In this document: piece by piece, positions 4,991-39,203 of the stretch
Layout of the letters: each line of letters begins with the position of its first letter
Numbering within the stretch: the first letter of the stretch is position 1
Source: a virus
Virus record (IMG/VR): IMGVR_UViG_3300010399_000031
Span: 62,001-126,000 of that record
Length of the DNA: 64,000 bases
Direction: 5' to 3' (one strand)
The notes under the pieces: model-generated
Seen by the model: only the letters and a program-made list of their open reading frames with translations
Told to the model about the DNA's origin: nothing
The model's database searches: none
Program-made: the position numbers and the translations under genes

Positions 4991-7219
4991 ATGGAACTGA
5001 ATAACCCTTTTGTCCTGAAACCCGAGGCTTATAAGCGAGATATCGATATTTTGCGCCACTATGTTGATCAAGCAGCTACGTATCTTGTCATCATGACTGG
5101 GAAGAATTATGCCGAGTGCATCAACTATGTGAAAAAGCAATTGGGTAAGGGCGGGCGATTTGAGTTTCAAGATCGTAAGATCACCTACGCTGAGCGCGGG
5201 GATAATGGTGATCGAGAGTTGAAAGAGGGCCCACTCTCGTGGTTCTTGACCACCTCGGTAAAAGAACAAGATATTATCGCCCCCACATTCACGACGTACT
5301 TGCACCCGAAGAAAAAGAAGTCGCTCTTTGCCATCTATATTGCGCTGGGTAAAAAACGCCGCAATAAAGCTAAGCACGAAATGTTCACAGCAGAGATGGC
5401 GCGAGATGATGCATTGAAGGTCAACGATACCGTTACAGCTACGGCTCAAGATCGACTCTATGCGTTTAAGAAGGTGGAGCAAGTCTACGCCAAACAAAAG
5501 AACAACTCTCTCTCGGGCGGACACAACTCCACTTCCACCACGCTTATCAATAAGACCGCCCACTCGACACTGACCTCCATTTGTCGGGCAACGTCCGGCT
5601 ATGGTAATGCGAACAACGAAAAGTTTCTTGCTGGTAATCGCCATTACTGGTCGCCAATGATCGCGACGAATAACATCGTCTCCATCGTGCGACATACTGA
5701 CTACAAACAGTTGCAGGCGGTTATCGAGAAGTATCAGATGTATTTACCCACAGCGCAAGATGTAATCGACGTGATCGATTACTCTGCCAAGCACTACTGG
5801 GGTCCGCACTGGAAGAGTACTGCTACCCATACTCGCCTGATGGAGATAGCTGCTCGCCTCACCCCTCTTCAGCGTGCCGCCTTTGTCTATACGGGTGATC
5901 TGTATCACATCCGTCAGTACAATTCGGACTTTGTGCGCACCTTGGTGATGGGATTATCCAAACGGGTCGATGTCGAACACCCCAATCCTCAAGAAGTCTT
6001 TAAGCGTTGCTTCGATGATCAGCGTAATTTGGCAATTGTGATTTGCTCACACGTCACCAAGGGGATCGACCCGGATAAACTGAAGGACCATCCCCATCCG
6101 TACGCTGTGACTGCCTCGACGATCGAAAACATCTACACTACGCTAGAAGAGTACGAGGATTTTATCAAGACGTTTTTCGTCACCGAGAACATGCCTGCCT
6201 CGATGGCTTATTTTCCGGAATCTATCCGGCATACGGCCTTGATGTCGGATACGGACTCCACCATCTTTACCGCTCAGGAATGGGTCGATTGGGCGTTTGG
6301 TCGAATCGGATTTAGCGACGAGGAAAATAATCTTTCTTCCGCTATGATTTACATGGCGTCAGCTTCGATCACTCATGTGCTTGCCAGGATGTCAGCCAAC
6401 ATGGGCGTCGATACATCGATGATCCACCAGATCGCGATGAAGAACGAGTACAAGTTTGACATCTTTGTACCGACCAACGAAGCAAAGCATTACTTTGCTT
6501 TGATTTCCTCGCAAGAAGGAAAGGTGTACAATAAGTTGAAGGAAGAGATCAAAGGAGTACACCTGAAGAACTCGAATGTCAATAAGTACATCATGGGGGT
6601 GGCTAAAAAGACCATGATCGAATCGATGGAGACGATCATGCGTGGCGAGATGATCGATCTGAAAGCGTACTTAAAACAGTTCGCTGATATCGAGCGCAGT
6701 ATCAAAGAATCGATCGAAAAGGGTTCACACGACTTCTTTCGTTTTGGACGAGTCAATCAACTGTCTTCCTATAAGCGCAAAGAAGATAAAGAAAAAGGTT
6801 GGATCGAACCTGAACATGATTGGATGGCAAGAACTCCCTATCGTTTTTACTTGCTCTGGAAAGAGGTCTTTGCACCATTTTACGGTGATGTGCCAGAGCC
6901 ACCCTATACGTGTTTGAAACTGTCATCAAATCTCGATACGATGGGTAAAACCAAGGAGTGGTTGGCGTCGATAGAGAACCGGGAGTTGGCTGATCGATTG
7001 ACCGAGTGGATGAAGAAGTACAAAAAGTCGTACCTTGGCATGGTGATGTTACCTGAGCAGATCGTGGCGATGCGCGGTATTCCGCCCGAATTGCTCAAGG
7101 TGGTTGATATACGCAACATGATCGTGGAGTCAACAGCGGTCTTCTATAAGCTGAGCGAAGCGTATGGCGTGTACATGCTTAACGATAAGAGAACTAAACT
7201 TTTTTTGGACTACTACTGA
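4991..7219 (+). CDS. Family-B DNA polymerase, C-terminal part (motifs B and C)
   Basis: This 742-residue protein carries palm motif C as DTDS (residues 420-423; the aspartates bind catalytic metal) and a motif-B-like KQKNNSLSGG (168-177), where most family-B enzymes have K..NSxYG; the tyrosine is replaced by serine. No 3'-5' exonuclease motifs or motif A occur here; they are in the minus-strand gene at 45002-46765, so the enzyme is split and must assemble from two chains. The ATG follows CGGAGTAAAAG. Its stop overlaps a small membrane-protein gene. It would replicate phage DNA, probably inside the phage nucleus. Confidence 0.75.
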   Translation: MELNNPFVLKPEAYKRDIDILRHYVDQAATYLVIMTGKNYAECINYVKKQLGKGGRFEFQDRKITYAERGDNGDRELKEGPLSWFLTTSVKEQDIIAPTFTTYLHPKKKKSLFAIYIALGKKRRNKAKHEMFTAEMARDDALKVNDTVTATAQDRLYAFKKVEQVYAKQKNNSLSGGHNSTSTTLINKTAHSTLTSICRATSGYGNANNEKFLAGNRHYWSPMIATNNIVSIVRHTDYKQLQAVIEKYQMYLPTAQDVIDVIDYSAKHYWGPHWKSTATHTRLMEIAARLTPLQRAAFVYTGDLYHIRQYNSDFVRTLVMGLSKRVDVEHPNPQEVFKRCFDDQRNLAIVICSHVTKGIDPDKLKDHPHPYAVTASTIENIYTTLEEYEDFIKTFFVTENMPASMAYFPESIRHTALMSDTDSTIFTAQEWVDWAFGRIGFSDEENNLSSAMIYMASASITHVLARMSANMGVDTSMIHQIAMKNEYKFDIFVPTNEAKHYFALISSQEGKVYNKLKEEIKGVHLKNSNVNKYIMGVAKKTMIESMETIMRGEMIDLKAYLKQFADIERSIKESIEKGSHDFFRFGRVNQLSSYKRKEDKEKGWIEPEHDWMARTPYRFYLLWKEVFAPFYGDVPEPPYTCLKLSSNLDTMGKTKEWLASIENRELADRLTEWMKKYKKSYLGMVMLPEQIVAMRGIPPELLKVVDIRNMIVESTAVFYKLSEAYGVYMLNDKRTKLFLDYY

Positions 7220-10095: not shown

Positions 10096-10417
10096 TTGGT
10101 CAGAGCGCAACAATCATGACGAATCGATCGACAGCGCAATTCAGCACATTAAGAGCCCGGTGTCGATCATCGCGACCGTAGACGACCATCACTCGCAAGA
10201 ACTTATTGACAAGATTAAGGAGTTGAACAAATCGTTCGGCAGCCAAGTGGTGATTATCGATTCGTACACGGACAAATTCAAGTTCCCGAATCAGCCGCTA
10301 TACCCTTGCGGTGTTACAGTGTTCACAGAGAAGGAACAAGAAGACGTACTAGTCAAAAATCGATCTAAGGGCCCGCGTCATACCAAAAACCAACGTGGCT
10401 CATGGTGGAACCGATAA
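10001..10417 (+). CDS. Hypothetical protein, start uncertain (up to 138 aa)
   Basis: The convincing part is residues about 52-138, beginning KSPVSIIATVDDHH and running through QVVIIDSYTDKFKF to a basic tail; its alternating strand-helix pattern could be a thioredoxin-like or Rossmann-like fold. The first 50 codons overlap the preceding gene in another frame and span the 21-bp inverted repeat, so they may not be translated. GTG 10160 is an internal alternative. A +1 frameshift fusion to the previous gene is possible but unproven. Confidence 0.4.
   Translation: MSCTRLFDALAASTNSRTSCVSKVSTRSIRHDWSERNNHDESIDSAIQHIKSPVSIIATVDDHHSQELIDKIKELNKSFGSQVVIIDSYTDKFKFPNQPLYPCGVTVFTEKEQEDVLVKNRSKGPRHTKNQRGSWWNR
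10078..10131. repeat. 21-bp perfect inverted repeat, 12-base loop
   Basis: Arms 10078-10098 and 10111-10131 are fully complementary and the loop is 10099-10110. The arms contain CGATCGATTCG and CATGATTG. There is no T-tract, so a simple terminator is unlikely; the repeat straddles the stop of one small gene and the uncertain start of the next. Confidence 0.8.
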
Positions 10418-10436
10418 AGAAAGGTTAATTAAAAAA

Positions 10437-11795: not shown

Positions 11796-11820
11796 GAGAA
11801 GAGCTACACTCAACTCTTAC

Positions 11821-11846
11821 CTACCACGGTTCTCCTGCCGTGGTAG
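11821..11846 (+). promoter_or_regulatory. Leader hairpin before chimallin
   Basis: CTACCACGG (11821-11829) pairs with CCGTGGTAG (11838-11846) over an 8-base loop. No T-tract follows, so this is more likely an mRNA 5' leader structure than a terminator. Confidence 0.45.
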
Positions 11847-11894
11847 GGACCCCACCTGTGATCGCGATATAGGTCGATTGAAAGAAAAATTGGC

Positions 11895-11904
11895 TATATA
11901 TCAC
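11895..11904 (+). promoter_or_regulatory. TATATATCAC early-type promoter
   Basis: The element lies 66 bases before the chimallin ATG. Similar sites lie at 20340 and 34173 before other genes. phiKZ early promoters, used by the injected virion RNAP, carry TATATTAC; strong early expression of chimallin would be expected. Confidence 0.5.
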
Positions 11905-11969
11905 AAACTTGCATAGTGGTAACACTGTGTTTGCGCAAACATGTTTTCATCAAGGAAGAAAGGAAAATC

Positions 11970-13922
11970 ATGACTCTGAAGACCAATCAATCCCGTGGCG
12001 GTCAAACCTCGATGGGTGCAGCTTACGCTGAAGCATCGCAGCGTCAGCCTGGTGCACAAACGGGTGCGGAGACCACGCAGGGAATGCCGCGTGAAGGCGC
12101 TGTGTCGCCCGAGACGTTCAGCATTCGTCAAATGTCGGCGCTGTTCGAACTTCCGGCAGCCGCCAACACGCAGTCGGAAGTTCTGGCCAAGGCTCGCAGC
12201 GTCCTGGAGGCCGATGTCAAAGCCGTGCCGGATCAGCAGTTCGACATCAAGATCATCGGTCTTGATCGTGAAAACCCGGCGCTGCACATCGGCGTCTCGG
12301 TGATCGTGATCGGCGTCTCGGTTCGTCAGAACCAAAACTACGGCATGGGTTACCACGTTCTGCTGCTCGCCGCAAGCGCGCCGGAGCCGGGTACGCAAAC
12401 GTTCCAGTACGCGCAAAACCGCACCGTCGAAGTCAAGCAAGTGGTGGGCGATGCATGGGACGATATCATGCGCACCGAAGTGAATAAGGAGCTTCAGCGC
12501 ATGTTCCCGAACGTGCCGCTATACTCGGGTGAAGCGCGTGTCGTGCATACGAACTTCAACTGGGACGACCAGACGCGCGTGAAGACGTTGCGTGCCGAAG
12601 TCGTGACGGCTGCTGCGATGGCGCTGGCCAAGTCGTTGCCCGACTTCAAGGACGTGAACCTCAAGCGCATCGAAGTCGACAACACGCTCTCGCTCACGAC
12701 GCAGTTCAAGCAACCGCAGATCACCGATTCGACCGGTCTGCCGATTCGTGCCGACATCCGCATCACGTTCAAGGCCGGTCAAACGCAGCGCAACCCGAAT
12801 CAGCTACAATCGCCGAACACGGAAAAGCCCCAGGAGATCACCTCCATCGCCGGCTACATGGATCTGATCCACATTCGGCAAGCGGCGGCCAATCCGTATC
12901 TGGCTCCGCAGCAGCAAGTCGAGTACGATCCGGCCACGGGTCGTCCGGTACCGGTGCGCCCGTTCATTCCGCGTTTCGTGATCACGCGTCTGCGTTCGGG
13001 TCGTGCTGCGACGCTTTCGCAGCAGTTGCTCGGCCTCGTGACGGTCTTCACACTGCGTAAGCCCGGTGCATACTACCCGCAATTCAAACCCGATTACGGC
13101 GTTCAGAACAACGACGGTATCGATCTTCGGGATGTGGGTGCACTCGGCCTCGTGATGGTCAATCCGCAAACAGGAGCGCCGGTGGGTCGTATTCCGACTA
13201 AGCAAGATACGTTCCGGGAATCGGATCTGGGTATTTTGCTGCACTCGGCTTGCCGCGCTGGTCTTGTCGTCTCGATGGATATCGACGAGTGTGGTGATGA
13301 CACGTGGATGAACGCTCCGTTCGCGGAAGCGGCTCAGACCGTTAATCCGGCCAAACGTCAGGCAGCCACCGAGTTGTTGTTTGACTCGATGAACTATCTG
13401 ACTGCCGGTAAGTTGGCCAACCACTTCCAGCGCGGTGCGGAGATCTGCTTCAACGAAAACAACCGCATCATCAACGGCTACTACACTGGTCGGGGCGGCG
13501 CGCTGTGCGACGCTCGTGACCTGGACGAACTGGCGATGCTCAACCTGATGGGAGAGCGTGACATGAAGGTCGTCACGGACTGGGAAGATACCTATCTGCG
13601 TAGCGAGTTCCCGCTGGAACAACGACTCGACGCCCGACTGGAAACGATGAAGAACCTGATGCCGGATCTGAAGGTGACCGGTATGTCCACACGTGTGACC
13701 TTCACCGACGCCTTCTTGAAGGCATCCACGAAGGCTGTGGCCGAAACGGGTCTGACCATCAAGGAAGTCTCCGCGTGGGCTGGGATGCAAGGGTTCGATG
13801 CCCCGACGTACCAGTTCGCTGGTGTCGCACTCGGTGGTTACGAAGCGACGAATCTGTTCCAAGCAGCTGGTGGTGGTGGCATGGGAACGTCCTACACGGG
13901 CGGTACCGGGCGCTGGCGCTAA
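11970..13922 (+). CDS. chmA: Chimallin (ChmA/PhuN-like), phage nucleus shell protein
   Basis: Chimallins (201phi2-1 gp105, phiKZ gp54) form the single-layer lattice enclosing replicating phage DNA. The protein here is 650 aa, close to the known 600-odd residues, with a low-complexity N-terminal tail (about 50 residues) and a Gly-rich flexible C-tail (AAGGGGMGTSYTGGTG), as expected for segments that tie subunits together. Codons are strongly GC-ending, unlike most neighbours, a sign of high expression. The RNAP beta' N-part follows directly, matching the gp54-gp55 order. AAGGAAA precedes the ATG; a GTG 54 bases upstream was rejected. The identification combines length, context and general resemblance, without an alignment. 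Confidence 0.75.
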   Translation: MTLKTNQSRGGQTSMGAAYAEASQRQPGAQTGAETTQGMPREGAVSPETFSIRQMSALFELPAAANTQSEVLAKARSVLEADVKAVPDQQFDIKIIGLDRENPALHIGVSVIVIGVSVRQNQNYGMGYHVLLLAASAPEPGTQTFQYAQNRTVEVKQVVGDAWDDIMRTEVNKELQRMFPNVPLYSGEARVVHTNFNWDDQTRVKTLRAEVVTAAAMALAKSLPDFKDVNLKRIEVDNTLSLTTQFKQPQITDSTGLPIRADIRITFKAGQTQRNPNQLQSPNTEKPQEITSIAGYMDLIHIRQAAANPYLAPQQQVEYDPATGRPVPVRPFIPRFVITRLRSGRAATLSQQLLGLVTVFTLRKPGAYYPQFKPDYGVQNNDGIDLRDVGALGLVMVNPQTGAPVGRIPTKQDTFRESDLGILLHSACRAGLVVSMDIDECGDDTWMNAPFAEAAQTVNPAKRQAATELLFDSMNYLTAGKLANHFQRGAEICFNENNRIINGYYTGRGGALCDARDLDELAMLNLMGERDMKVVTDWEDTYLRSEFPLEQRLDARLETMKNLMPDLKVTGMSTRVTFTDAFLKASTKAVAETGLTIKEVSAWAGMQGFDAPTYQFAGVALGGYEATNLFQAAGGGGMGTSYTGGTGRWR

Positions 13923-13952
13923 GTTGTACGGTAGCTGAAGTAATGTGAGAAA

Positions 13953-13982
13953 AGAGGAGATTGAAATCTCCTCTTTTTTTCT
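13953..13982 (+). terminator. Terminator after chimallin
   Basis: AGAGGAGATT (13953-13962) pairs with AATCTCCTCT (13965-13974), followed by seven T's. It separates the highly expressed shell gene from the polymerase gene and lacks the TTTATGCC motif. Confidence 0.8.
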
Positions 13983-14006
13983 TAAAGCTATCGTACGGAG
14001 GTAATC

Positions 14007-15491
14007 TTGGGAGTCAGTCTCGCGTTAGCAGATTTGGACGTCGTACATCGTAGCTGTCAACACGTCGTTCACGTGGTAAATGACATTTCGGTTGCCTTGG
14101 CAAGCGAGAAGGAGGATTTTAACCGCAAGATCATGACGCGGTTCTCCGGGGATGATTTGCTGAGCAATTTACCCAGTTGTTATTGCGGCCAGACAACAGG
14201 AGAGCAAAACAAGTATGACATCTGTAACGTGTGTCATACGCCTGTTATCGATTCAACGATGCAGGAGTTGGAACCGATCGTGTGGATGAGGGCTCCCAAT
14301 GGAGTCAGGTCACTCATCAACCCGCTATTTTGGACTATGATTTCGGAGTTCTTCTCGCGAGGAAACTTCGATGTCTTGCGCTGGATTGCGGACACGAACT
14401 ATCACCCAGTGGCACGCGTGCCAGCAGTGATGGAAGCAGTCAAAGCAGTTATTCCAGACCGTGGGTATAACTATTTCATCGATAACTTCTTGGACGGCGA
14501 TCGAATCATTGAACGCCTGATGGAGTTGAAAGTCTATCGTACGCCACCTAAGAGGAAGGTTGCGACCGATTTGATGGAGATGATACGGCGATATCGACAC
14601 TGTCTGTTCCCGCAACACGTTCCTTTCCCGAACAAAGCGCTCGTCGTTCTCGAACGCAGTAACGTCGGCAATTACATCGACACCACGATTAGCGGCGTGG
14701 TCGATGCGATTCGCACGATGACAGGTATTGACCTTCCAGAAAACAACTTCTCGATCCGGACCAAGGAGAACCGGACCATCAAGACGTTGTGTCAGTACGG
14801 CGAGTTCCACCTCGAATGGGCTTCGAAGTCGCTGGCTGGCAAACCGGGGATTTTGCGCAAGCACGTCTATGGTTCACGGTCGGACTTCAGTTTCCGAGCA
14901 GTGATCACCTCCATCAGCGACGCACATCGCTACGACGATATTTATATCTCGTGGGGTATCGCAGTGTCGGTGTTCAGACTGCACCTGGCGAACAAGCTCG
15001 ATCGCCTGGGGTGGCTCTCGAACCAGATCGTTGGATTTCTCGACGAACATGCGCAAAAGTTTCACCCGCTTCTGGCCAAGCTTTTTGACGAGTTGATTAC
15101 CGAATCACCGGGGGGAAGAATCCCGGTTATCCTCGGTCGCAATCCGTCGCTTCAGCGTGGCTCGACACAGCAGTTGTTTATTAGTCGGGTCAAGCATGAT
15201 GTGCAGATCCCGACCATCTCGCTCTCGGTGCTCGTGTTGCGCAGTTTCAATGCGGACTTCGATGGCGATCAGGTCAATGTTTCACTCGCGCTCGATAACC
15301 GTACCGCGCAGGACCAACGCGCACTTGCTCCTCACATGAGCACGTTGGATTTGGATGAACCGTATCACATTTCTTCCAGTCTTTCGCTACCGAAACCGGT
15401 GGTGAGTTCGATTGTGGAATGGATGCACGACGATGAAGGACCTCTGACACCTGAAGAACAACGCATGATGGATGCAATACCTGACGCTTAA
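14007..15491 (+). CDS. Non-virion RNAP beta' subunit, N-terminal part (gp55-like)
   Basis: NADFDGDQ at residues 415-422 is the universal beta' active-site motif whose three aspartates hold catalytic magnesium; it is preceded by NPSLQRGSTQ, matching the NRAPTLHR region. C58, C60, C73 and C76 form a zinc site near the N-terminus. At 494 aa the protein stops soon after the active site; the rest of beta' is at 29141-31171. The TTG start is supported by GGAGGT four bases upstream. This would be one chain of the five-subunit non-virion polymerase that transcribes middle and late genes within the phage nucleus. Confidence 0.85.
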   Translation: MGVSLALADLDVVHRSCQHVVHVVNDISVALASEKEDFNRKIMTRFSGDDLLSNLPSCYCGQTTGEQNKYDICNVCHTPVIDSTMQELEPIVWMRAPNGVRSLINPLFWTMISEFFSRGNFDVLRWIADTNYHPVARVPAVMEAVKAVIPDRGYNYFIDNFLDGDRIIERLMELKVYRTPPKRKVATDLMEMIRRYRHCLFPQHVPFPNKALVVLERSNVGNYIDTTISGVVDAIRTMTGIDLPENNFSIRTKENRTIKTLCQYGEFHLEWASKSLAGKPGILRKHVYGSRSDFSFRAVITSISDAHRYDDIYISWGIAVSVFRLHLANKLDRLGWLSNQIVGFLDEHAQKFHPLLAKLFDELITESPGGRIPVILGRNPSLQRGSTQQLFISRVKHDVQIPTISLSVLVLRSFNADFDGDQVNVSLALDNRTAQDQRALAPHMSTLDLDEPYHISSSLSLPKPVVSSIVEWMHDDEGPLTPEEQRMMDAIPDA

Positions 15492-17409: not shown

Positions 17410-18540
17410 ATGGCCATGAAGGTTAAGAAGATTCATCTGGCTACCCTCAGTGACCTGCATCTCGGACATCGTCGCAATAGTGCATCGGAGATCATAGCGA
17501 ATCTCCGGTGTACTATTGACGACAGTGTTCGAACTTCCCAACTCGACATCATCTTCTTGGCCGGAGACGTTTTCGACGACTTGCTTTTACTCAATAACGA
17601 CGAAGTACTCGAAATCGACCTGTGGATTTATTGGTTGATGACGTTATGCGTAAAATACGACATCGTACTGAGAGTGTTAGAAGGCACTCCCAGACATGAT
17701 CGCAAACAATCGAAGCGGTTTGAGTTGATCAACGAGGTGATGGGTAAACCGGTTGATTTGAAGTATATCACTGATATTTCGGTGGAACACATCGAACGCT
17801 TTGGTATTGATGTGCTTTATGTTCCGGACGAAGCCACGGAGTCGCCAGAGAAAACGCTTGGCGTTGTCAAAGAGGTGATGGCAGCGCGAGGGTTAGAGCA
17901 AGTTGATTTTGCCATCATGCATGGTTGCTTCGATTACCAGATCCCCTATCTGGCAAGTGACCACAAGCATGATTCTCAAGCCTATTTAGCGCTGGTACGT
18001 TACCTGATTTTTATCGGTCACGTACACATGTTTAGTCAACTAGACCGTATCACAGCGCAAGGTTCCTTTGATCGTCTCTCCCACGGTCAAGAAGAACCTA
18101 AAGGACATGTTCGTGCAACCGTATATCAAAATGGAGAAAGAGAGGTTACTTTTGTTGAGAACACGAACGCGAAGAAGTTCGTTACGCTCAAGTGCCAGGA
18201 GAATACGCTGGAAGAAACATTGGTTGAAATTCACGAGTTGGTGCAAACACTGCCGCCGCATTCTCATGTCCGATTGGATTTGAATGCGGATCACCCGCTT
18301 TTAGCCAGCACCGACACGTTGATTCGACGCTTTCCCATGATAACGTGGGAGAAGATTGTTCGCGAGACAGGAGAGGAATCTGTCATTGCAGAGGCTGATG
18401 CAAGCGAGGAAGAGTATACCCCGATCACGATTACACGTGATAACATCGTTCAAATGGTGATGTATCGGGTGGCCCTTCACCCGGAAATTACCAACGATTT
18501 ACTGGTACTTGCACAGGAGCAACTGGAAAAGGTGATCTAA
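17410..18540 (+). CDS. SbcD/Mre11-like metallophosphoesterase, 376 aa
   Basis: Calcineurin-like metal-binding motifs appear in order: SDLHLGH (D15, H17), AGDVFDD (D53), a modified GTPRHD (H96, D97) in place of GNHD, MHG near residue 175, and GHVH near 203. This is the layout of the SbcD/Mre11 nuclease, which trims DNA ends with an SbcC/Rad50 ATPase. No Rad50-like coiled-coil ATPase is in this window. The C-terminal 130 residues resemble the capping region. The gene runs directly into the next without spacer. Likely role: DNA repair, recombination or genome processing. Confidence 0.75.
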   Translation: MAMKVKKIHLATLSDLHLGHRRNSASEIIANLRCTIDDSVRTSQLDIIFLAGDVFDDLLLLNNDEVLEIDLWIYWLMTLCVKYDIVLRVLEGTPRHDRKQSKRFELINEVMGKPVDLKYITDISVEHIERFGIDVLYVPDEATESPEKTLGVVKEVMAARGLEQVDFAIMHGCFDYQIPYLASDHKHDSQAYLALVRYLIFIGHVHMFSQLDRITAQGSFDRLSHGQEEPKGHVRATVYQNGEREVTFVENTNAKKFVTLKCQENTLEETLVEIHELVQTLPPHSHVRLDLNADHPLLASTDTLIRRFPMITWEKIVRETGEESVIAEADASEEEYTPITITRDNIVQMVMYRVALHPEITNDLLVLAQEQLEKVI

Positions 18541-19452: not shown

Positions 19453-19522
19453 AGTGGGAATTTACGCAGTCGATCCATTTTCTGGATGCGTCCATACATC
19501 AATTTCGTCTGAGCAAAAAAAC

Positions 19523-20266
19523 ATGGCATACGACAACAACCGCAGTGGCGGATACAGCGGTCCGCGCACCGAACGCCCGAAGAACATGCTGGATGACTTC
19601 CGTGTGAGTCTATCGGCACCGAGTACCGCCAAGGGTAAGTGGGCTTCGTTGAAATGGAGCTACGCGGGAAATCAAGTCGGTCTCACGATGTACTCCAATG
19701 ACCCAGCTGACGAGAAGAAGTCCGTGCGCATTCAGATGCCACCGACCGATTTCTGCCGGATCTTGGTGTTGCTGGAGATGGCGATCAACTTCCCGGAGCA
19801 GGGTGATCACAAAGTCTGGATGGAGTACAGTGACTACATGTGGTTCAATCGGGAAAAGAGCAAAGAAGTCAAACTCCAAGGCACGGTCTACATCGGCAAG
19901 AAAGACGGCGTCGTCTGGATGTCGCTTGTCTCCTACGACAAGAGTCGCCCGCGCATCAAGTTCCCCTTCGGTAACACCATGTACACGGCGCTCTACAAGA
20001 GCGACGGCTCAGCCATGACCGATGCGGAAACCTCGGTCATCTCCGCGAAAGCGAACCTGATGTTCCTTCAACATACGATCCCGACCGTGGCTAATGCGCA
20101 CTACAAGCATCGCGAATCGAGCGCAGTGAAGAAAGATGGTGACGAACGTAGTAGTAACTCCAGTAGTGGCGGAGGTGGAGGTTACTCCAGCGACTCTCGC
20201 TCGGGTTCGGGTAACAACAATGCCGCACCGGATGAAGACGGATATAGTGACGACATACCTTTTTAA
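19523..20266 (+). CDS. SSB-like or ChmC-like nucleic-acid-binding protein, 247 aa
   Basis: A beta-rich N-terminal domain of about 190 residues (GKWASLKWSYAGNQVGLTMY onward) is followed by a Gly/Ser/Asn-rich disordered linker and an acidic tip ending DDIPF, the classic C-terminal hook of bacterial SSBs that recruits partner proteins. The gene stands right before the gp68-position gene, where phiKZ carries gp67; I recall gp67 being the shell-associated RNA-binding protein ChmC/Imp6, but this is memory and inference. An SSB role is equally compatible. ATG 19523 is preferred to 19454 because the upstream codons look like leader. Confidence 0.6.
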   Translation: MAYDNNRSGGYSGPRTERPKNMLDDFRVSLSAPSTAKGKWASLKWSYAGNQVGLTMYSNDPADEKKSVRIQMPPTDFCRILVLLEMAINFPEQGDHKVWMEYSDYMWFNREKSKEVKLQGTVYIGKKDGVVWMSLVSYDKSRPRIKFPFGNTMYTALYKSDGSAMTDAETSVISAKANLMFLQHTIPTVANAHYKHRESSAVKKDGDERSSNSSSGGGGGYSSDSRSGSGNNNAAPDEDGYSDDIPF

Positions 20267-20391: not shown

Positions 20392-21963
20392 GTGAAAATC
20401 AACACTGATCGAATGGGGATGTATAGTCCTCAGACGGACGCGCAGATGTCGCATAATGGTATTGTCATTACGTGGAACTACGCGGCATTTAAGAAACAAC
20501 AAGGAAAGGAGGGTCAATCAACGGGGTTGTTTGTCGAGATCAATGATTACTGGGAGTATGTCGCCAAGGATCATCCTGCGGTGGTTGACCAGATTTTTAG
20601 CGTCTATCTGCGGATCAAAGACACATTCGAGAATACGGAAAACACCAAAACCCTTACTAGTACGCTCGTACCGTTACTTGAAGAGTTGTATAAATTGCAC
20701 CCGATCGAATCACTTGATCATTGGGTGCGTTTCTATTCGGGAATCAGGATCCCGGAGAAGATCGAAAAGGAGTTCGTCGAAAGCGACGAGCTTTCTAACA
20801 CGCGACTTAAGACATACACGCGAGAGGACTATCACAAGTTACTCGTGTTAGCGCTTGCATTTCGTGCAGTGGTTCCAGTGTGGGGTGAGCTTATCGCCTA
20901 TACCGAGAAACACAAAATCCTCGGCACTAATTGGAAAGAATACAGTGCTTATCAGTTGCTTAACCGAACTGCACTGATGAACTGCGAAGCCATGGTCAAG
21001 CTTCGTGGGTATGTGAATGCTTTCATTCCGACAGATAAAACCAAGCGACCCCATTCTGCCATCATGGCTGGGGTGGGAACTGAGGATTTCCCTGAGTGGT
21101 TACTTGGTGTTATCGTTTTTCGACGTGTGTGCAATGGAGACATTCGTAACACCAATCCAGACACTCACTTGGTGAGTTCTATTCATAGCTACATTCTGAA
21201 TAAACTCAACCCGAGCGAGTCCAGTTTCATCGGACGCGTGCGGGAGAAGAACAGTCGCAAGGAAGGTGAAGGTGACGATAACAAACTCTCTCGTCTGGAA
21301 GGTTACAAGATCCGGCAAGAGTTAGCAGAAGGGGACATCGCCATGATCGTCCACTCTGCGCGTGACCCATATCGCTTGGCGCGTGCTGTCTCACAAAGTG
21401 TTGATTTGGCTTTGGTGGAGGAAGCTTTGGAATCAACCAAGGCGCTTCTCGGAGTTCACATCCAACAACCGCAATTGACGATCATGCAATGGGTGCTGGC
21501 GGACGGCATCAAACCGCGTGGTTTGCAGTATCTTCCCAAACCGGTGTTTTTACAAGCCATGGCAGTGGCACAAGCTGTACTCTGGCATAAGGGTCACTAC
21601 GCAATTGCTGGACTCGTGAGTGCTGAGGCTGAGGTAGGGGACGCCGAATTTAGCGAGGTGAACATGGGTGGTCATGGGCGAATTTCCAAGGAGTTGACGG
21701 AACATTTGGCCATCACGCATCCGTACCACCTGCGCCCAAGTGGTAAGCAGCAAAAAGAAAGTGGTCGCTTGCAAAATAGCGCCGTGGTTTCCATTGACTT
21801 GGTGACCAAGCAATTCGATCAGTATGGTTGGTTGTTGACCTTGCCGAGTGACAAGATCAAACTTATCAACCTGAATATGGCAACGCGTCGATTCGTCCTT
21901 CCCAATGACATTCGCAGTCAGCTTGCCAAACTCGCTATAGACATCGCAACTGGGAGTCTTTAA
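20392..21963 (+). CDS. Probable fifth subunit of non-virion RNAP (gp68-position), 523 aa
   Basis: phiKZ nvRNAP needs gp68, a roughly 520-residue protein without clear homology to bacterial RNAP subunits, encoded shortly before the beta C-part gene. This protein has the right length (523 aa), place (two genes before the beta C-part) and an exact early promoter element. No catalytic motif was seen; it is helical with a few Trp/Tyr-rich segments. A GTG start has GAGGAG 11 bases upstream. The assignment is by synteny only. Confidence 0.5.
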   Translation: MKINTDRMGMYSPQTDAQMSHNGIVITWNYAAFKKQQGKEGQSTGLFVEINDYWEYVAKDHPAVVDQIFSVYLRIKDTFENTENTKTLTSTLVPLLEELYKLHPIESLDHWVRFYSGIRIPEKIEKEFVESDELSNTRLKTYTREDYHKLLVLALAFRAVVPVWGELIAYTEKHKILGTNWKEYSAYQLLNRTALMNCEAMVKLRGYVNAFIPTDKTKRPHSAIMAGVGTEDFPEWLLGVIVFRRVCNGDIRNTNPDTHLVSSIHSYILNKLNPSESSFIGRVREKNSRKEGEGDDNKLSRLEGYKIRQELAEGDIAMIVHSARDPYRLARAVSQSVDLALVEEALESTKALLGVHIQQPQLTIMQWVLADGIKPRGLQYLPKPVFLQAMAVAQAVLWHKGHYAIAGLVSAEAEVGDAEFSEVNMGGHGRISKELTEHLAITHPYHLRPSGKQQKESGRLQNSAVVSIDLVTKQFDQYGWLLTLPSDKIKLINLNMATRRFVLPNDIRSQLAKLAIDIATGSL

Positions 21964-23567
21964 TGAACGAAACAACCGCACTGATGTCCCGTCCCCGTGG
22001 TTTTGGTCATGTTCCCGCAGAAGCCAAAATCACCAAACTGCTGATTTACGAAACCGGTGAATACAATCGGCAGTGGAGTCGTCCTTACACGACCAACTTC
22101 GACGGGCATGTCCTGAATCAATTCCACGAGCAGTTGCAAGGGCTCGACCATTACGCACCGGCAAACTTCACCGGCATCGCGCAGAGCTTCATCAAGCCAG
22201 CTGCACAAGTCGATCTTAACGGTGGCGGTATTGCCATCCCGCAAGGTTGGAATAGCCGCCGGTGTCGCTTCATGATGGTCGTCGAGTACGACGGACACCT
22301 CGGGATGCGCATGCAGGAAATCCTCACGGGTTGGACCGAGGGCGTTGGTGCCATGCCGCAAGGGGGTATCCTTCACCATGAAGCGCAACCCCTGATGGTT
22401 GACAACGACATGATCTTCTATGTCAATTCGACCATTCAGTTGCAGGTGAAAAGTGAGTTCGGACCTGCTGGTCATCGTGAGACGATGGCGGTGGCTAAAA
22501 ATTCCCACGTTCTTGCCGATCCGAAGTACGGTTCGATCTTCACCCCCGGTACACAAGAGCGCATGCGCCCGACCGATCTGTTTGCTGTGATGAGTCGCTC
22601 GCATCTGCATGCGGTGCGCGATGAGTATGGCAACATCCCTGGTGTGGGTCCGCGTCTATTCGATGGTCGCAATGCGATGACCAACATGGCGGCGCTTTCG
22701 CTGCGCAGCAATGTGATTCCGGCCGCGTACATGTCGCGCGTGATGGATAACTATCACAACGCGGCGGTGACCAACAACGATCCGAGCAAAGCCAACGGCG
22801 ACTTCTACACGAACGCGCGTACGTATTCCAACGATGGGTTGGTGAGCAACGACGAAGTGCTGCGGATGTTGGCTGATCTGCGGGGCGAGCCGATTGGCAA
22901 TACGTTCCGATTCCGAGATTTGGTCAGGCTCGATCCGACCATTCAAGGTCGAGCGCTTGGTCGGTGTTCGGGGCGCACCGAGAAGATCACGGGGTTGCAC
23001 CAAGCTGGGATGACCAAAGAGTGGGACGGTCGTGATGCGGTGACGCTGGCTGCCACCATCATCAGTCAGTGTGTGCCGGGTATCATGGCCGATCTTGCAC
23101 TGACCGTGATGCATTTCCGTACGCACAATGAGATGGCTGTCTCGGGCAACTATTCAGCTGTCGATCCGACCACGTTCTTGGGTCGGCCAGGTCGAGAGCC
23201 GGACTTTGCGATTATCAATGTCGCTGGGTTTGGTGATCAAGATCTGGGTCCGGGGATGTACGCGTTCGAGAAACGCTTCTGGTTCGAAGTGATGAAGGAC
23301 CTGTGCTTTGACAACCAGATTCGTTTCATGCTGGAGGTCAATTGCAATCTGACGGGCGAGACCGTGGTGAACATCTCGCTCGATGGTCGCCCGATTGAAC
23401 AGTTCGTCACACCGTCGTTTGCTGATGCGCTACTCACCCCGCTTGTCACCAACGACCACAACCACGTGGTTCAAGTGGCTAACGATTTTAATCAATTACT
23501 CACAGCCGTCGTACCGACGACGGATGCAGCGTCATCCACGGCGTTCTTCAACGACGACTCATTCTAA
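21963..23567 (+). CDS. Candidate nuclear import factor (PicA/Imp1, gp69-position), 534 aa
   Basis: The ATG overlaps the previous stop (TAATG) behind GGGAG. The protein is beta-rich with many Gly/Asn turns and no enzyme motif, ending with an acidic, Phe-rich tail (STAFFNDDSF). In phiKZ, gp69, encoded between gp68 and gp70, is the shell-associated import factor described as PicA or Imp1; this gene occupies that place. Its fold also resembles phage structural proteins, so a virion role cannot be excluded. The assignment relies on order and remembered literature. Confidence 0.45.
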   Translation: MNETTALMSRPRGFGHVPAEAKITKLLIYETGEYNRQWSRPYTTNFDGHVLNQFHEQLQGLDHYAPANFTGIAQSFIKPAAQVDLNGGGIAIPQGWNSRRCRFMMVVEYDGHLGMRMQEILTGWTEGVGAMPQGGILHHEAQPLMVDNDMIFYVNSTIQLQVKSEFGPAGHRETMAVAKNSHVLADPKYGSIFTPGTQERMRPTDLFAVMSRSHLHAVRDEYGNIPGVGPRLFDGRNAMTNMAALSLRSNVIPAAYMSRVMDNYHNAAVTNNDPSKANGDFYTNARTYSNDGLVSNDEVLRMLADLRGEPIGNTFRFRDLVRLDPTIQGRALGRCSGRTEKITGLHQAGMTKEWDGRDAVTLAATIISQCVPGIMADLALTVMHFRTHNEMAVSGNYSAVDPTTFLGRPGREPDFAIINVAGFGDQDLGPGMYAFEKRFWFEVMKDLCFDNQIRFMLEVNCNLTGETVVNISLDGRPIEQFVTPSFADALLTPLVTNDHNHVVQVANDFNQLLTAVVPTTDAASSTAFFNDDSF

Positions 23568-23582: not shown

Positions 23583-25088
23583 ATGGAATTGCTTCCTTTG
23601 TACAAGTCAATCCTCAAGGCGGGGCACTTGGTGGTTGATGACGAAGGGTTCATCAAGCGGATTTGGAAGGGAAAGAAAGAGCCGTGGCTTATCAACGGTA
23701 AATCCGTGGTTCTTCCCACGGATGCACAGTTAAAGACACCCTCGGCTGAAACAATCGTCTTCCATCCGCTGTTTGAATTCCTCACGCGTGCGGAATCGGA
23801 AGTGACGGCTGAGTATCGCCGCACAGTTACGGAGCGACTGCATCTGTCGTTTCTGGCGCTGGCAAGCGAGTTGCTCACGATCGCCGCTTCTCAGGACATG
23901 CACGCCAAGCTCACTCCTGAACAGTCGGAGTTTCTCTCGTTCGTGCCGGAGGCCGACGGGCAGATGCTCAAAACGTTCGAAGAGTTGTGCGACGCCATGC
24001 CGGAGGGGCAAAATCAGAAGGCATTCGTCTCGATGTATCTAAAACGTGGCGGCATCGTGCAAGGTAAGTCAGCTCACCGAGCAGCGATCGTCACGTTCCC
24101 GTTGTACAAGCAGTTGGTGGAAGACGGGCAAAAACGTGAAGCGGAGATGAATGCGCGCAAGCACGTACCAAAGAAGAAGGATGAGAAAAAGGAGGAAGAA
24201 AAACTCCTACCTATTCCGAACGAGACGTATGGCGTGAAGTTGCGCAAGATCGATCGGGAGGCGTTTATCAAACTCTTCGAGTACATGGTGCCGGGCATCG
24301 CCGAAGTCGATTCGTATTCAGCTACATCGAATAGCAACATCGCGCCGTCGATGGATGCGATCATGCACGCGGTACAGAACTTGGCTGCGCCACTGAATGA
24401 CATGGTTGAGCGTTTCAAGGGGAAGTTGTCGGAAAGCGCGCAGATCATTTTGCGTGTTGAAGATGCCTGGGTGCCGGAGTTTGTCAATTTGGCTCCGCTA
24501 CAAGTGCAAATTCGAATGATTCCGATGCAAGATGGTAACGATGGTGCGTTGCCAGTTGCGGCAGATAAGAAAGCAGCAGAAGCGGAAGCGTACGCCAGTC
24601 CTCCGAAAGCGGTCCCGGTTACAAGCGCTCAGGCGGGCCAAGCTCAACCGAGTGGCGTCTCAGCGGTCGGAGAAGAGCACGCCCCGCCAGGATTTCGCCT
24701 ACCACCGAAGAATCCCCAGCAACCGGCTACCCCGACGTATTCTGGAGCACCTGTTGTTGCCCCGCCTCCACCGCCGCCTGCCTATCCGGCATATCAACCC
24801 CAAGTCGGCTATCCTCCACCGTACGCCGCAGTCCCACAGATGGCTCCTCCCGCTGCACCGCCGGTCGCCATGCCGGGCGTACATCCGTCGCTTGCCGCCT
24901 TTGCAGCCCCGTACATGGCTTCAATGGCTGCACCCTATGTGGCTCAACAAGACATGCCTACGTGGGCCTATGGGGGTGGTACACAACGGCCGGTGCAGTC
25001 GCAAGGTTATCCTCAACAACAAGGTTACCCCACCGCACCGCAAGGGTATGGTTACGGGGTGCCTGGTACGTCTCGTGGGGATTTCTAA
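23583..25088 (+). CDS. Protein with Pro/Ala/Tyr-rich disordered tail (gp70-position), 501 aa
   Basis: AGGAG precedes the ATG. The first 330 residues are alpha-helical, including a Lys/Glu-rich stretch (KKKDEKKEEEK, about 197-208). From about residue 335 to the end the sequence is low-complexity, with runs of PPPPPPAYPAYQP and repeated GYPQQQGYPTAPQGYGYG, a tyrosine-rich tail typical of proteins that form condensates or flexible contacts. It sits between the PicA-like candidate and the RNAP genes. Function unknown; an association with the nuclear shell or transcription is an inference. Confidence 0.6.
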   Translation: MELLPLYKSILKAGHLVVDDEGFIKRIWKGKKEPWLINGKSVVLPTDAQLKTPSAETIVFHPLFEFLTRAESEVTAEYRRTVTERLHLSFLALASELLTIAASQDMHAKLTPEQSEFLSFVPEADGQMLKTFEELCDAMPEGQNQKAFVSMYLKRGGIVQGKSAHRAAIVTFPLYKQLVEDGQKREAEMNARKHVPKKKDEKKEEEKLLPIPNETYGVKLRKIDREAFIKLFEYMVPGIAEVDSYSATSNSNIAPSMDAIMHAVQNLAAPLNDMVERFKGKLSESAQIILRVEDAWVPEFVNLAPLQVQIRMIPMQDGNDGALPVAADKKAAEAEAYASPPKAVPVTSAQAGQAQPSGVSAVGEEHAPPGFRLPPKNPQQPATPTYSGAPVVAPPPPPPAYPAYQPQVGYPPPYAAVPQMAPPAAPPVAMPGVHPSLAAFAAPYMASMAAPYVAQQDMPTWAYGGGTQRPVQSQGYPQQQGYPTAPQGYGYGVPGTSRGDF

Positions 25089-25595: not shown

Positions 25596-25630
25596 GGAAT
25601 TGAATTAATCTTTCCTCAAAGGAAAATGTG

Positions 25631-26854
25631 ATGTCTGAGCATGCTGAACTGGACATTTGCAGTTATGTAGCAAACCAGATGGACAGGCGATTGATGGGGG
25701 TCAATGGCTTGAACTTTGCAGATACCCTGGATAGCTCACCTCGTAAGCAAATGTTTGCGAGTCATATCGGTCAATGTTTGGTGATCAAAGGAGGCACCGA
25801 GCGATTTATCCAGACCGGTATGGAGCGCCAGTATGCACGAACCACCTTCTCGGTGAAGATGCCAGAGGATGGCATCATCCTGAAAGTGCTGCATCGTTAT
25901 CGAGAAACAATGGGGGAAACGATTCACAACCCCGAGACCTATCTGCTATACGAATCGATGGATCCTGCTCGTGCTGGGGAAATCGGAATTATTACGTTAC
26001 CGGAGTATTTCTCTGATCAGACGTATTTTGGTTTCGAATATGGCCGAAGCAAGTGGCTTAAGAAGTCCTCGATTACACACGGCACTCCGATCAAGAAAGG
26101 TACGATCTTGCTCGATTCTCCGGCGATCGTGGAGAACGATGATGGTAGCCTTCAGGGTTACAAGTATGGTCGCCAGTGCAAGGTGGCGTATATGACTCAT
26201 CCGGCAGTTTCTGAGGATGGGATTGCGGTATGTCGGGATGTCCTTCCGTATTTCGCAATTAATACGTTTCGCAAGTATGAAGTGGAGTGGGGAAGTCGCT
26301 ACATTCCACTGAACCTTTACGGAGACGAGAACAACTATAAACCTTTTCCCGAGATTGGCGATGTGATTCGTCCAGATGGATTAATCATGGCACTGCGACG
26401 GGACGATCGCTCTTTGGCCGTGGTGGAGCAATCAGCCCGTGCCTTGCGTGAGGTGGACTTCTTGCATGATCGGCGTTTTTACGCCGCCGGTGCCGGTGGT
26501 CGGGTGATCGATGTTCGGATCTATCATGATGACTATACGTCCAGCAATGCTCCTGAAGAGATGGAGCGCCAAGCGATGCGCTATCATCGCTCGTCGCAAC
26601 AGTTTTATCGGGAATTGCTGCAAGAACTGAAGGAAATCGAGCAACGGCGCGGTGTGCCGCCCGTGCTATCGACGGAGTTGCATGAATTGGCAGTTGAAGC
26701 CACGGCCATTTTGGATAATCGAGCCAATGGCGCACAAGAGCGTCGAGTACTGCTTCATCGCAAAAACCCGATCGATGACTGGCGTATGGAAATCGTTGTT
26801 CAGTATGAAATCATTCCTACGGAAGGTTTCAAAATTACCGATTGCCATGGTGGT
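25631..26854 (+). CDS. Non-virion RNAP beta subunit C-part, exon 1 (gp71-73-like)
   Basis: 408 codons of the C-terminal half of an RNAP beta subunit. Beta-like features include THPAVSEDGIAVCRDVL and, at the end, the TDCHGG corresponding to the GRHGN segment around the conserved lysines of bacterial beta. Reading through reaches a stop (TAG 26858) one codon after the junction. A T-ending exon and G-ending intron fit group I splicing after position 26854, restoring HGG-KGVICKI (bacterial: HGN-KGVISKI) with the exon at 28137. AAAGGA precedes the ATG; a GTG one codon upstream is possible. Confidence 0.85.
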
Positions 26855-28136
26855 ATTTAGTAAAAGTTCGTCCGTCCTTGTAAAAAGGAGGATGAAATGG
26901 GAATTCGAGTTATTCCTGGTTATGAAACTTACGGCGTTACAAAGGCTGGAATAGTTGTTTCGTTTGAGAGTGGAACGATCCTGAGGCGATACTTGTTTGA
27001 TGGTTATATCTACGTAGATCTTTTTAAAGAAACGATAAAACCATTACGAGTACATCGACTAGTTGCATTAGCGTGGGTTGTGAATCCTAATCCAAACCGG
27101 TTTACCATTGTCAATCATCGCGATGGTATTCGGATAAACAATTGGTGGGAAAATCTTGAGTGGACTGATTACTCAGGTAACAATTATCACGCTATTAACG
27201 CAGGACTGAGGTCTGATAACATTCGCTGTTGTGTAAGAGATTTTTACACAAAGCAAGTGCATGAATTTGCTTCAATGGCGCAAGCCAAGGAATTCATGGG
27301 ACTTCGTAAAGACGTTCGAGTTGAACAACTCTCACTCAAGCAATTTGGAGCACTTATCGAGGGTCGATTTGAGTTCCGATTTGCAAACGATTCGACACCG
27401 TGGTTTTATGAAAATCGCACTGAGCTGGTTCCGCCATCCCGATATATGGTGGTGGTTCTAGAACCAAACGGCGAAACTAGAGAAGTATATTCGAATCGAG
27501 ATTTGCTTCAACGCTATCAACTTTATCGTAGCTCGAGCAGATCTATCCCTGGATTAGTCGATTACGGAAATTCATTATATCCGGATCATGAGTTTAGTTA
27601 TCGAGACAGTTACGCGGAGGAACAACACCGTGTGTCCCGAAATATAAAAAGTCAGGCTCAACCCATTCTTGCGGTACGTGGTGTCGAAGAGCTTGATTTT
27701 CAATCACTGACTCAATGTGCTAATCATTTTGATGTCGATCGTTCAGTTATTGTTCTTCGGTTAAATAGTGGACAAGATTTGGACGGATGGACTTTTACTT
27801 CAATGCCTCTTTAATCAGTAATGATTAAAGAAATCTCCTTTAATTGCTGGAAACTCCTGTTAGACGTGTGTACCACTGCGAGCCGCGAGGCAAAGCGACG
27901 GTTTGAAAAACACACGGTAGGGACAATCAGCAGCGAAGCTTCTCTTACGAGAAGAACGTTCAACGACTAAGACCTTACCAGTCTGTAGAGCCAAGCGGTA
28001 GGCGTATAGCCTTTAAATCGAAATAGGGAGCTTCCTACTTGAAAAAGAGGAAGAAGATATAGTCTGCTCCGTATGGAAACATACGGCGGGTGCTTTAACG
28101 CACCGGCTCAGCGTAGCGAACTGAGTGGACATTAGG
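26855..28136 (+). mobile_element. Group I intron with HNH homing endonuclease in RNAP beta gene
   Basis: 1282 bases interrupt the beta gene at its most conserved segment. The endonuclease gene fills the first 960 bases and the catalytic core lies after it: a P-type element AATTGCTGGAAACTCC (about 27842-27857), an R-type GTTCAACGACTAAGAC (27958-27973), and the conserved S-type AAGATATAGTC (28054-28064). Boundaries were chosen because exon 1 ends in T, the intron ends in G, and splicing gives an unbroken KGVICKI frame. phiKZ's matching gene (gp71-73) is also intron-split around an endonuclease gene. Confidence 0.8.
26897..27814 (+). CDS. Intron-encoded HNH homing endonuclease, 305 aa
   Basis: A typical HNH signature: VHRLVALAWV, then VNHRDGIRINNWWENLEW followed by NNYHA. 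AAAGGAGG precedes the ATG. The remaining 180 residues probably recognise DNA. The base composition is clearly AT-richer than the flanking RNAP exons, indicating separate origin. It would cut intronless RNAP beta alleles and drive intron spread. Confidence 0.85.
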   Translation: MGIRVIPGYETYGVTKAGIVVSFESGTILRRYLFDGYIYVDLFKETIKPLRVHRLVALAWVVNPNPNRFTIVNHRDGIRINNWWENLEWTDYSGNNYHAINAGLRSDNIRCCVRDFYTKQVHEFASMAQAKEFMGLRKDVRVEQLSLKQFGALIEGRFEFRFANDSTPWFYENRTELVPPSRYMVVVLEPNGETREVYSNRDLLQRYQLYRSSSRSIPGLVDYGNSLYPDHEFSYRDSYAEEQHRVSRNIKSQAQPILAVRGVEELDFQSLTQCANHFDVDRSVIVLRLNSGQDLDGWTFTSMPL

Positions 28137-29144
28137 AAAGGCGTCATCTGTAAGATCCTCGAACCTGAGGACATGCCGGTGGATGAAAACGGCGTGCGCG
28201 CCGATATCATCATGGACGGAAACTCGACCAATAGCCGGATGAACCTGGGTCGAAAGTACGAACAGTTCTTTAACAGCGCGTCAGCCCACGTGTGTGCCAC
28301 GGTGCGCAAGATGCTCAACCTGGAGGTTAAAGAGCCGAGTTTGGAACTGAAGCTTGAGCAATTGGAGGCCACGAACAAAGCCGCAGTCGATGCGGCTTGG
28401 TACTATCTGTGCGGATATCTGAAGATCATGAGTCCGGATAAGATGTATCCGTGGTATTGGAAGGGAGAGGCGCATACGACGCAAAAGGGATTGATCATCA
28501 ATCCTTATCCGCGAACTCGCTATCTCGCGGAAGTCATTCGTTCAGTTGATGGACTGATCATCTACTGGCCACCCGAGAACAGCCGGGAGTTCACGGATGC
28601 AGTGCAGTTGATCCAGAACAACGCCCAGTATCGCCCCCACCATGGTCCGGTTACCTATCGCGGGTACTCCGGTAAAATGGTGAAGACTCGAAACAAGGTG
28701 AGAATCGGTAGTGTGTACATCATCTTGCTAGAGAAGATTGCTGATGACTGGACGGCTGTGTCCTCATCCAAGCGTCAGCACTTCGGGGTGATCAGTCAGA
28801 TCACGAGTTGGGATAAGCATAGCTCGCCGCAACGCGTGCAAGCGATTCGGGCATGGGGTGAATCTGAAGTCCGGATCTCCATCTCTTTCCCTGGACCGCG
28901 TGTGACCGCAGACCTTTTGGACCGTAACAACAATCCAAGAACCGCGCGCCACCTTATCGACAACTTGCTGCAAGCTGAGCGCCCAACCGATATCGAGCGT
29001 ATCGTCGATCGACGGGTGATTCCGTACGGAGGAAACAAACCAGTGCAGTTGGTGAAACACATGGCGCTTACCTGGGGTTGGCAGTTCGAGTACGCGCCGT
29101 ATATTCCGAATCAAAGTAGCACAACACGGGAGATTGCTGCATGA
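28137..29144 (+). CDS. Non-virion RNAP beta subunit C-part, exon 2
   Basis: 335 codons continuing exon 1 in frame. It begins KGVICKI, then EDMPVDENGVRADIIMD and SRMNLGRKYEQF, counterparts of the bacterial beta stretch EDMPY..DG.PVDIVLNP...PSRMNIGQ. The C-terminus ends beside the beta' gene with a four-base ATGA overlap. Together the exons give 743 residues. The N-terminal half of beta (gp123-like in phiKZ) is not in this window. Confidence 0.85.
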   Translation, partial: KGVICKILEPEDMPVDENGVRADIIMDGNSTNSRMNLGRKYEQFFNSASAHVCATVRKMLNLEVKEPSLELKLEQLEATNKAAVDAAWYYLCGYLKIMSPDKMYPWYWKGEAHTTQKGLIINPYPRTRYLAEVIRSVDGLIIYWPPENSREFTDAVQLIQNNAQYRPHHGPVTYRGYSGKMVKTRNKVRIGSVYIILLEKIADDWTAVSSSKRQHFGVISQITSWDKHSSPQRVQAIRAWGESEVRISISFPGPRVTADLLDRNNNPRTARHLIDNLLQAERPTDIERIVDRRVIPYGGNKPVQLVKHMALTWGWQFEYAPYIPNQSSTTREIAA

Positions 29145-38369: not shown

Positions 38370-39203
38370 ATGCTCGACATACTCGACGACTACTTGAGTG
38401 GGGTAACCACGCCCGAGCTTAAGCAAGCCATTCGCCACGCTCATGAGTTGTTTGACCGCTACGGGCTCGACACCTACGAGAAGGACTTCGAAGAATTCCT
38501 CATGACAGGTGACCAAGCTGATACGGGTCGCGTGGTGCAAGACACGTATGATTTAACACGCTCGCTCCAGTTTAAGATTTTGGAGGAGCATCAACTCGTG
38601 ATCGATGAGAACGCAGCACCTTCTGTGCTCAATATCTTTTTGGAAGGTTTGTTGCGGTTGCCTGAGTACGATAACCCCGACGCACTGTATGGCATCTTGA
38701 TGCAACCACTCGATGCCATGGAGCTTATCTCCGAGTGTATCGCTTTGGTGATGGGGCGCTCAGCCGATCATCTTCACCAGTATGTCCGCAATTGTGGCGC
38801 TGCTCTTTTGCAACAAGTCGTGCGCAACCTCGATCAAAAACACTTCGCCCAGTCTGATGAAGAGATTGTGGCTAAGCGTGAGCGGGTGCAAGCTTACAAA
38901 GATTTTCTCGCCGTTGCACAGATCAAGCAACTGAAGATCGCATATCTCTTAGAGCACGGATTGGATGTGGGTCACCCGGTGATGATCTACTTGAATCTGA
39001 TCGGGCAAGACTTCGAGGAGATGGAGGCAAGCTATATCGCCAATGAGTTAGTTGCGATGTGTTTGATTTCCTCCGATGCGAACACCAATCCGCGCCAAGT
39101 GGTGACTGACCACCTGGAAAAATTCGTCTCTGACATGAACAAAATCACGAAAGTGGATTTGGTCGTGGGAGAGCTTTTACTTAAGTTGAGTGCCCATGGA
39201 TAA
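38370..39203 (+). CDS. Hypothetical protein, 277 aa
   Basis: GAGGC precedes ATG 38370; a GTG 18 bases upstream is less likely. The protein is almost entirely alpha-helical and acidic, without known motif. Its end overlaps the start of the beta' C-part gene, so the two are coupled and the product may be a partner of the virion RNA polymerase or a virion protein. Confidence 0.6.
   Translation: MLDILDDYLSGVTTPELKQAIRHAHELFDRYGLDTYEKDFEEFLMTGDQADTGRVVQDTYDLTRSLQFKILEEHQLVIDENAAPSVLNIFLEGLLRLPEYDNPDALYGILMQPLDAMELISECIALVMGRSADHLHQYVRNCGAALLQQVVRNLDQKHFAQSDEEIVAKRERVQAYKDFLAVAQIKQLKIAYLLEHGLDVGHPVMIYLNLIGQDFEEMEASYIANELVAMCLISSDANTNPRQVVTDHLEKFVSDMNKITKVDLVVGELLLKLSAHG

Follow-up and report, generated by a model that had tools for sequence, protein, structure and literature searches.

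Chimallin gene, leader palindrome and adjoining split RNA polymerase gene in a divergent phage of the Chimalliviridae

Chimallin in described phages and in the window

Phages that encode chimallin (ChmA), the nuclear shell protein, form one clade with a common core genome (PMC10299810), and assembly of the protein is driven by a flexible N-terminal tail with the NTS and by the C-terminal segments CTS1 and CTS2 (PMC9365700). Among the described systems, phiKZ (gp54-gp55), 201phi2-1 (gp105-gp107), Goslar and phiPA3 have the protein family, its fold, a nearby N-terminal part of beta' of the split non-virion RNA polymerase (nvRNAP) and an early-type promoter in common with the locus presented here, at a ChmA identity of about 21%. 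Erwinia phage RAY, for which a nucleus was shown by microscopy and cryo-ET (PMC10299810), encodes ChmA followed by nvRNAP beta' subunit 1 (gp222-gp223), as in our locus; its ChmA is also 21% identical, and its leader palindrome is ACATTAGCTAATGT. The best match from an isolate is Burkholderia phage FLC9 (gp382, LC667451), which has the same order from chmA through the nvRNAP block, but its leader palindrome differs (ACACACTCGAGTGTGT), its nvRNAP beta C-terminal part has no intron and its genome is larger (322 kb). Closest of all are two metagenome contigs from IMG/VR, L025 (3300013104_000024) and L026 (3300048915_000145). Both have the gene order and the promoter-palindrome leader block of our phage, and their divergence from it (55% ChmA and 77% DNA polymerase identity) makes them different species at least.

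The stretch analyzed here, called the window, comprises 64,000 nucleotides of a 243,403-bp IMG/VR virus record and starts at record position 62001; outside it, the record was probed for PhuZ, ChmA and the palindrome only. The initial annotation had taken a 650-codon gene in the window for chimallin, and this is borne out by family profiles, PDB matches and the predicted fold. The gene lies on the plus strand, from an ATG at 11970 to the end of the open reading frame at 13922. Residues 51 to 623 of its product match the Pfam family PF25677 (Chimallin_Phikzvirus) with 115.1 bits, far above the curated cut-off of 27, and the protein matches phrog_4795, "nuclear shell protein," with 272 bits. A phmmer search of the PDB returned only four sequences, every one a chimallin (Goslar, phiPA3 PhuN and 201phi2-1 in two constructs), the best being Goslar chimallin (7sqt, E 9e-25). 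With tblastn, 101 of 50,697 phage records were matched, headed by FLC9 with 31% identity over 94% of the query. An AlphaFold2 model, computed from an alignment of the window ChmA with 42 IMG/VR homologues (pLDDT 80, pTM 0.80), contains the two-domain core fold of the solved chimallins. Foldseek placed solved chimallin chains from Goslar, 201phi2-1 and phiPA3 at all of ranks 1 to 9 (E 2e-32 to 3e-28, target TM 0.77 to 0.86); the tenth match had an E value of 0.083, leaving chimallins as the only confident matches. Best matches to an unrelated structural family, or a fold unlike chimallin, were looked for, and neither occurred.

The Gly-rich tail described for the protein is seen as a Gly-rich end, GGGGMGTSYTGGTGRWR. 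In the model, confidence is low for residues 1 to 65 and 604 to 650, the regions of the flexible assembly tails in chimallin (PMC9365700), and short elements at 52-58, 615-620 and 630-632, at roughly the places expected for NTS and CTS, lie inside these low-confidence tails. The strong GC3 bias held only in part: at 0.71, chmA exceeds its close neighbors (0.49 to 0.67), but values of 0.76 to 0.77 are found for genes elsewhere in the window, so that the bias is not the highest in the window and is weak evidence for identity. By its profile matches and predicted fold, the 650-aa protein is a chimallin, an ordinary but divergent member of the known family, with an identity to ChmA proteins of isolated phages that is low, at about 19 to 30%.

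Gene order, nucleus partners and family placement

Directly after chmA lies the N-terminal part of nvRNAP beta' (14007..15491, plus strand), a homologue of phiKZ gp55 that carries the motif NADFDGDQ, just where the initial annotation had placed it. It begins with a TTG preceded by a good Shine-Dalgarno sequence, GGAGG, and its full length matches phrog_2987 (RNA polymerase beta subunit) with 475 bits; it also matches Pfam RNA_pol_Rpb1_2, and the alignment agrees with this assignment. The annotated gp55 reading frame of phiKZ (L011 47923-49185) stops just before NADFDGDQ, as would fit an element that interrupts the gene there, whereas the gene in the window is uninterrupted. The spacing between chmA and the beta' gene is 84 bp and includes an intrinsic-terminator-like hairpin with a T-run (13951..13980, plus strand), which is partly conserved in L025 and L026; the annotation of phage LucasX also has a predicted terminator after chmA. 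Because of this gap with its terminator-like hairpin, the two genes are perhaps not simply cotranscribed.

The phiKZ gp54-gp55 order had been said to be reproduced here, and it is in fact kept across the family. We surveyed 53 IMG/VR DNA polymerase loci with at least 9.9 kb of downstream sequence. chmA was found in 52 of them, and in every locus with both genes (52/52) chmA precedes the beta' N-terminal part, with a spacing within 422 bp. The same order is found in FLC9, LucasX, Eowyn, FLC8, RAY, SA002, RVTF4 and Proteus phage 10, and also in phiKZ, 201phi2-1, PhiPA3 and PhiEaH1; in a few isolated phages a small open reading frame separates the two genes.

The window genes from 4104 onwards are for the most part colinear with phiKZ gp49-gp99, apart from a few rearrangements, and the following homologues are all on the plus strand (gene names follow PMC11087766, PMC10643120 and PMC12908238). 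Upstream of chmA there is a divergent family B DNA polymerase (phiKZ gp50; 4991..7219; Pfam divDNApol, 732 bits). Downstream are an SbcD-like nuclease subunit (gp65; 17410..18540; phrog_100), a ChmC homologue (phiKZ gp67/PhiPA3 gp61; 19454..20266; phrog_3284, E 9e-37; phmmer to gp67, E 1.5e-12), an nvRNAP subunit (gp68; 20392..21963; phrog_3209), the protein importer PicA (gp69; 21963..23567; phrog_3141, 273 bits; gp69, E 2.7e-35) and, by homology, a counterpart of phiKZ gp70/PhiPA3 gp64 (23583..25088), the latter being shell-associated in PhiPA3 (PMC10643120). The C-terminal part of nvRNAP beta is encoded in two exons (gp71, 25628..26860, phrog_3295; gp73, 28125..29144, phrog_3295 and Pfam RNA_pol_Rpb2_6), followed by the C-terminal part of nvRNAP beta' (gp74; 29141..31171; phrog_3015, 578 bits) and, further on, a part of the virion RNAP beta' subunit (gp80; 39190..40503; phrog_2962, 496 bits). 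In the part of the Chimalliviridae core examined, that within the window, PicA, ChmC/gp67, multisubunit vRNAP and nvRNAP genes and the DNA polymerase are present, and chmA adjoins the nvRNAP beta' N-terminal part as in the core block of the family. About 240 bp ahead of the window start there is a gene for PhuZ (G000:C1:60779-61753; phrog_4733 "tubulin PhuZ," 274 bits). PhuZ is common in the Chimalliviridae, being present in 66%, and is not required (PMC10299810), and ChmB homologues have so far been identified only in Pseudomonas phages (PMC10643120).

Several other features of the window were observed. The nvRNAP beta C-terminal part is split by a group I intron (26860-28125; Rfam RF00028, 92 bits at 27785-28086), inserted between ..TDCHGG and KGVICK.., at the site also split in phiKZ gp71/gp73; FLC9 has no intron there. 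An HNH endonuclease reading frame within the intron region (26897-27814) encodes a protein 55% identical to phiKZ gp72, compared with 36 to 40% identity for the exons. A QueC-like gene at 10395-11165 (PHROG 1550, E 1e-25; Pfam QueC just below the cut-off) is possibly 7-deazaguanine-related. The homologue of phiKZ gp82 (45002-46765) is on the minus strand in the window and on the plus strand in phiKZ, and homologues of gp179 (40575-41591) and gp104 (35082-35543) are also displaced relative to phiKZ.

In a ChmA tree of 55 rows, the window protein groups with those of L025 and L026 at full support, and the rows that come next are separated from them by more than 2 changes per site. These relatives, with the nearest ChmA at 55% identity, were found via an alignment of a ChmA pair and a DNA polymerase alignment; when IMG/VR was searched directly by pattern, with either ChmA alone or the beta' N-terminal part as query, no relatives were found, and two broad alignments were too divergent for searching. 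The first 25 kb of the window had no megablast match to any isolated phage. Since ChmA and the polymerase are only 55% and 77% identical to those of L025 and L026 and no isolated phage was matched, assignment to a candidate undescribed genus of the Chimalliviridae is a fair reading.

The homologues of ChmA, PicA, ChmC, nvRNAP and PhuZ together suggest that the phage forms a nucleus. Its low identity to the characterized ChmA proteins might be taken to mean that the 650-aa product is a chimallin-like structural protein that builds no nucleus, but this is most improbable given the family scores, the fold, the gene order and the presence of PicA, ChmC, nvRNAP and PhuZ, and given that chimallin-encoding phages are a single clade with a shared core (PMC10299810). 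By homology to phiKZ, 201phi2-1 and Goslar, a nucleus-building ChmA would be made early in infection and would use its N- and C-terminal tails to self-assemble into a square-lattice shell around the replicating genome. The nvRNAP would transcribe later genes inside the shell, PicA would import proteins into it, and ChmC would handle mRNA. The locus is almost certainly chmA, with a control region of its own, followed by the split nvRNAP beta' N-terminal part, in a phage of the Chimalliviridae. That control region would consist of an early-type promoter, followed in the 5' leader by the single-copy palindrome, and of the terminator-like hairpin behind the gene.

A palindrome in the chmA leader

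The putative promoter element upstream of chmA, CTATATATCAC (11894..11904, plus strand), is of an early, vRNAP-like type with the motif ATATYAC and is identical in L025 and L026. Most chimalliviruses, among them phiKZ, have ATATYAC in the corresponding position before chmA. Phages of the phiKZ type have AT-rich early promoters that the element resembles, which suggests that it functions as a promoter; in phiKZ and phiR1-37, early transcription starts 6 nt downstream of the promoter element (PMC5312081). Between this element and the start codon is a perfect, operator-like 14-bp palindrome, TGTTTGCGCAAACA (11928..11941), which is the only site with at most one mismatch in the whole 243-kb record. 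The leader block TTGGCTATATATCAC-(3)-CTTGCATAGTGGTAACACTGTGTTTGCGCAAACAT is identical to that of L025 and L026 outside the 3-base gap, despite the 55% identity of the proteins. Of the 80 IMG/VR stretches listed with an exact match to TGTTTGCGCAAACA, 5 contain chmA, and among viruses at large the motif is not exclusive to chmA; for a 14-mer this is no surprise, given the great size of the collection.

A longer ChmA, starting at a GTG at 11916 (18 extra codons, conserved in L025 and L026), was considered and rejected, because the conservation is at the DNA level, starts ahead of that GTG, within the promoter element, and is highest over the palindrome. The ATG at 11970 was preferred because a good Shine-Dalgarno-like sequence, AAGGAAAA (11960..11967, plus strand), precedes it. 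Upstream of the promoter there is also a hairpin (11818-11848; CCTACCACGG..CCGTGGTAGG), and the changes in its arms in L025 and L026 keep most of the pairing.

The leader palindrome is conserved across the family. For 55 ChmA clusters (70% identity, single linkage), we examined the 110 bp that precede the start codon. In 37 clusters this region contains a perfect palindrome 12 bp or longer, compared with 24 of 547 control leaders from other genes of the same loci (Fisher p 2.4e-29), and shuffled chmA leaders gave a mean of 2.2 and a maximum of 7. Among individual other genes, the counts were 3/45 for the DNA polymerase, 0/52 for the beta' N-terminal part and 1/36 for phuZ. The remaining 18 of the 55 clusters had no perfect palindrome that long by this test, and several of these have near-palindromes. 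The pattern was first noticed in the data and tested afterwards. Nine further phages, some of them related to phages already included, were fetched after the survey; seven had a palindrome of 12 to 18 bp at the expected place, and two, pPa_SNUABM_DT01 and SURPRISE13, had none by the same test. The counts are not independent trials, owing to the common ancestry of the clusters and to the kinship of some held-out phages with surveyed ones.

A stronger argument than the counts is that the sequence changes while the symmetry is kept. TGTTYGCGCRAACA occurs in both halves of the ChmA tree, a TTGATCAA-type palindrome in the phiKZ group (Pseudomonas phages), ATTAGCTAAT in RAY and Proteus phage 10, ACTCGAGT in the FLC9 group, and TTTGCAAA and others in other clades. 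Between relatives, several differences are matched in both arms, as in FLC9 ACACACTCGAGTGTGT versus L020 ATACACTCGAGTGTAT and in phiKZ TTCTTGATCAAGAA versus PhiPA3 TACTTGATCAAGTA. In nearly all cases the center of the palindrome is 30 to 50 bp after the promoter element and 30 to 45 bp before the start codon. The 197 kb of phiKZ examined contain 18 early-type promoter matches, and only the one of gp54 has such a palindrome behind it.

A DNA site or an RNA element

The chmA leaders are rich in one kind of inverted repeat. Zero-loop dyads with arms of at least 6 were found in 36 of 54 leaders, compared with 1.5 in shuffles, and inverted repeats with odd or non-self-complementary loops were at the shuffle level. 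Because the dyads are zero-loop and symmetric, and an RNA hairpin needs no symmetric loop, the favored reading is a site in double-stranded DNA that a dimeric protein would bind. The features expected of an operator are found here, namely a dyad-symmetric site with a symmetric center, located at the promoter of chmA. From this position behind the promoter, a protein bound to the site could block early transcription of chmA or modulate it. Most likely, the palindrome is the binding site of a putative dimeric, probably phage-encoded DNA-binding protein that would throttle transcription of chmA. The small open reading frames near chmA had no detectable DNA-binding domain.

Two other explanations were weighed. 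The palindrome might work in RNA, as a protein-bound hairpin (bound, for example, by ChmC) or through pairing between transcripts, and control translation or export. It does lie inside the presumed transcribed leader, 30 to 45 nt ahead of the start codon in nearly all cases, and by calculation the RNA forms stable self-duplexes (-16 to -28 kcal/mol). However, the elements are weak as hairpins (-0.2 to -5.7 kcal/mol), a plain hairpin reading is not favored, and the excess of dyads is confined to the zero-loop type; we consider a role in RNA rather unlikely. Alternatively, the palindrome could be a genome-level site, an anchor or a packaging or replication mark, that is located at chmA by chance. 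TGTTTGCGCAAACA occurs once in the 243-kb record and the phiKZ version, CTTGATCAAG, once in the 197 kb examined, as such a mark might, but the tight position between chmA promoter and start codon in very divergent phages fits gene control better, and we regard a chance location as quite improbable. For the family as a whole, we lean on balance towards a single-copy palindromic operator that controls chmA throughout the Chimalliviridae, with a putative dimeric regulator that would have coevolved with a site of clade-specific sequence and kept symmetry and position.

The leader palindrome is likely a new observation. A 2025 review of nucleus-forming phages makes no mention of a palindrome, operator or leader, and a literature search, made up partly of titles and abstracts and with few subscription journals covered, returned no description of it and no described control of chmA. 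The chimallin assignment adds a deep, separate lineage of nucleus-forming phages, with two near relatives from metagenomes. The palindrome would matter more, as a possible dedicated switch for building a shell that has to be started early and to grow with the genome. A family-wide, chmA-specific site makes the control of chmA testable in phiKZ, RAY or Goslar.
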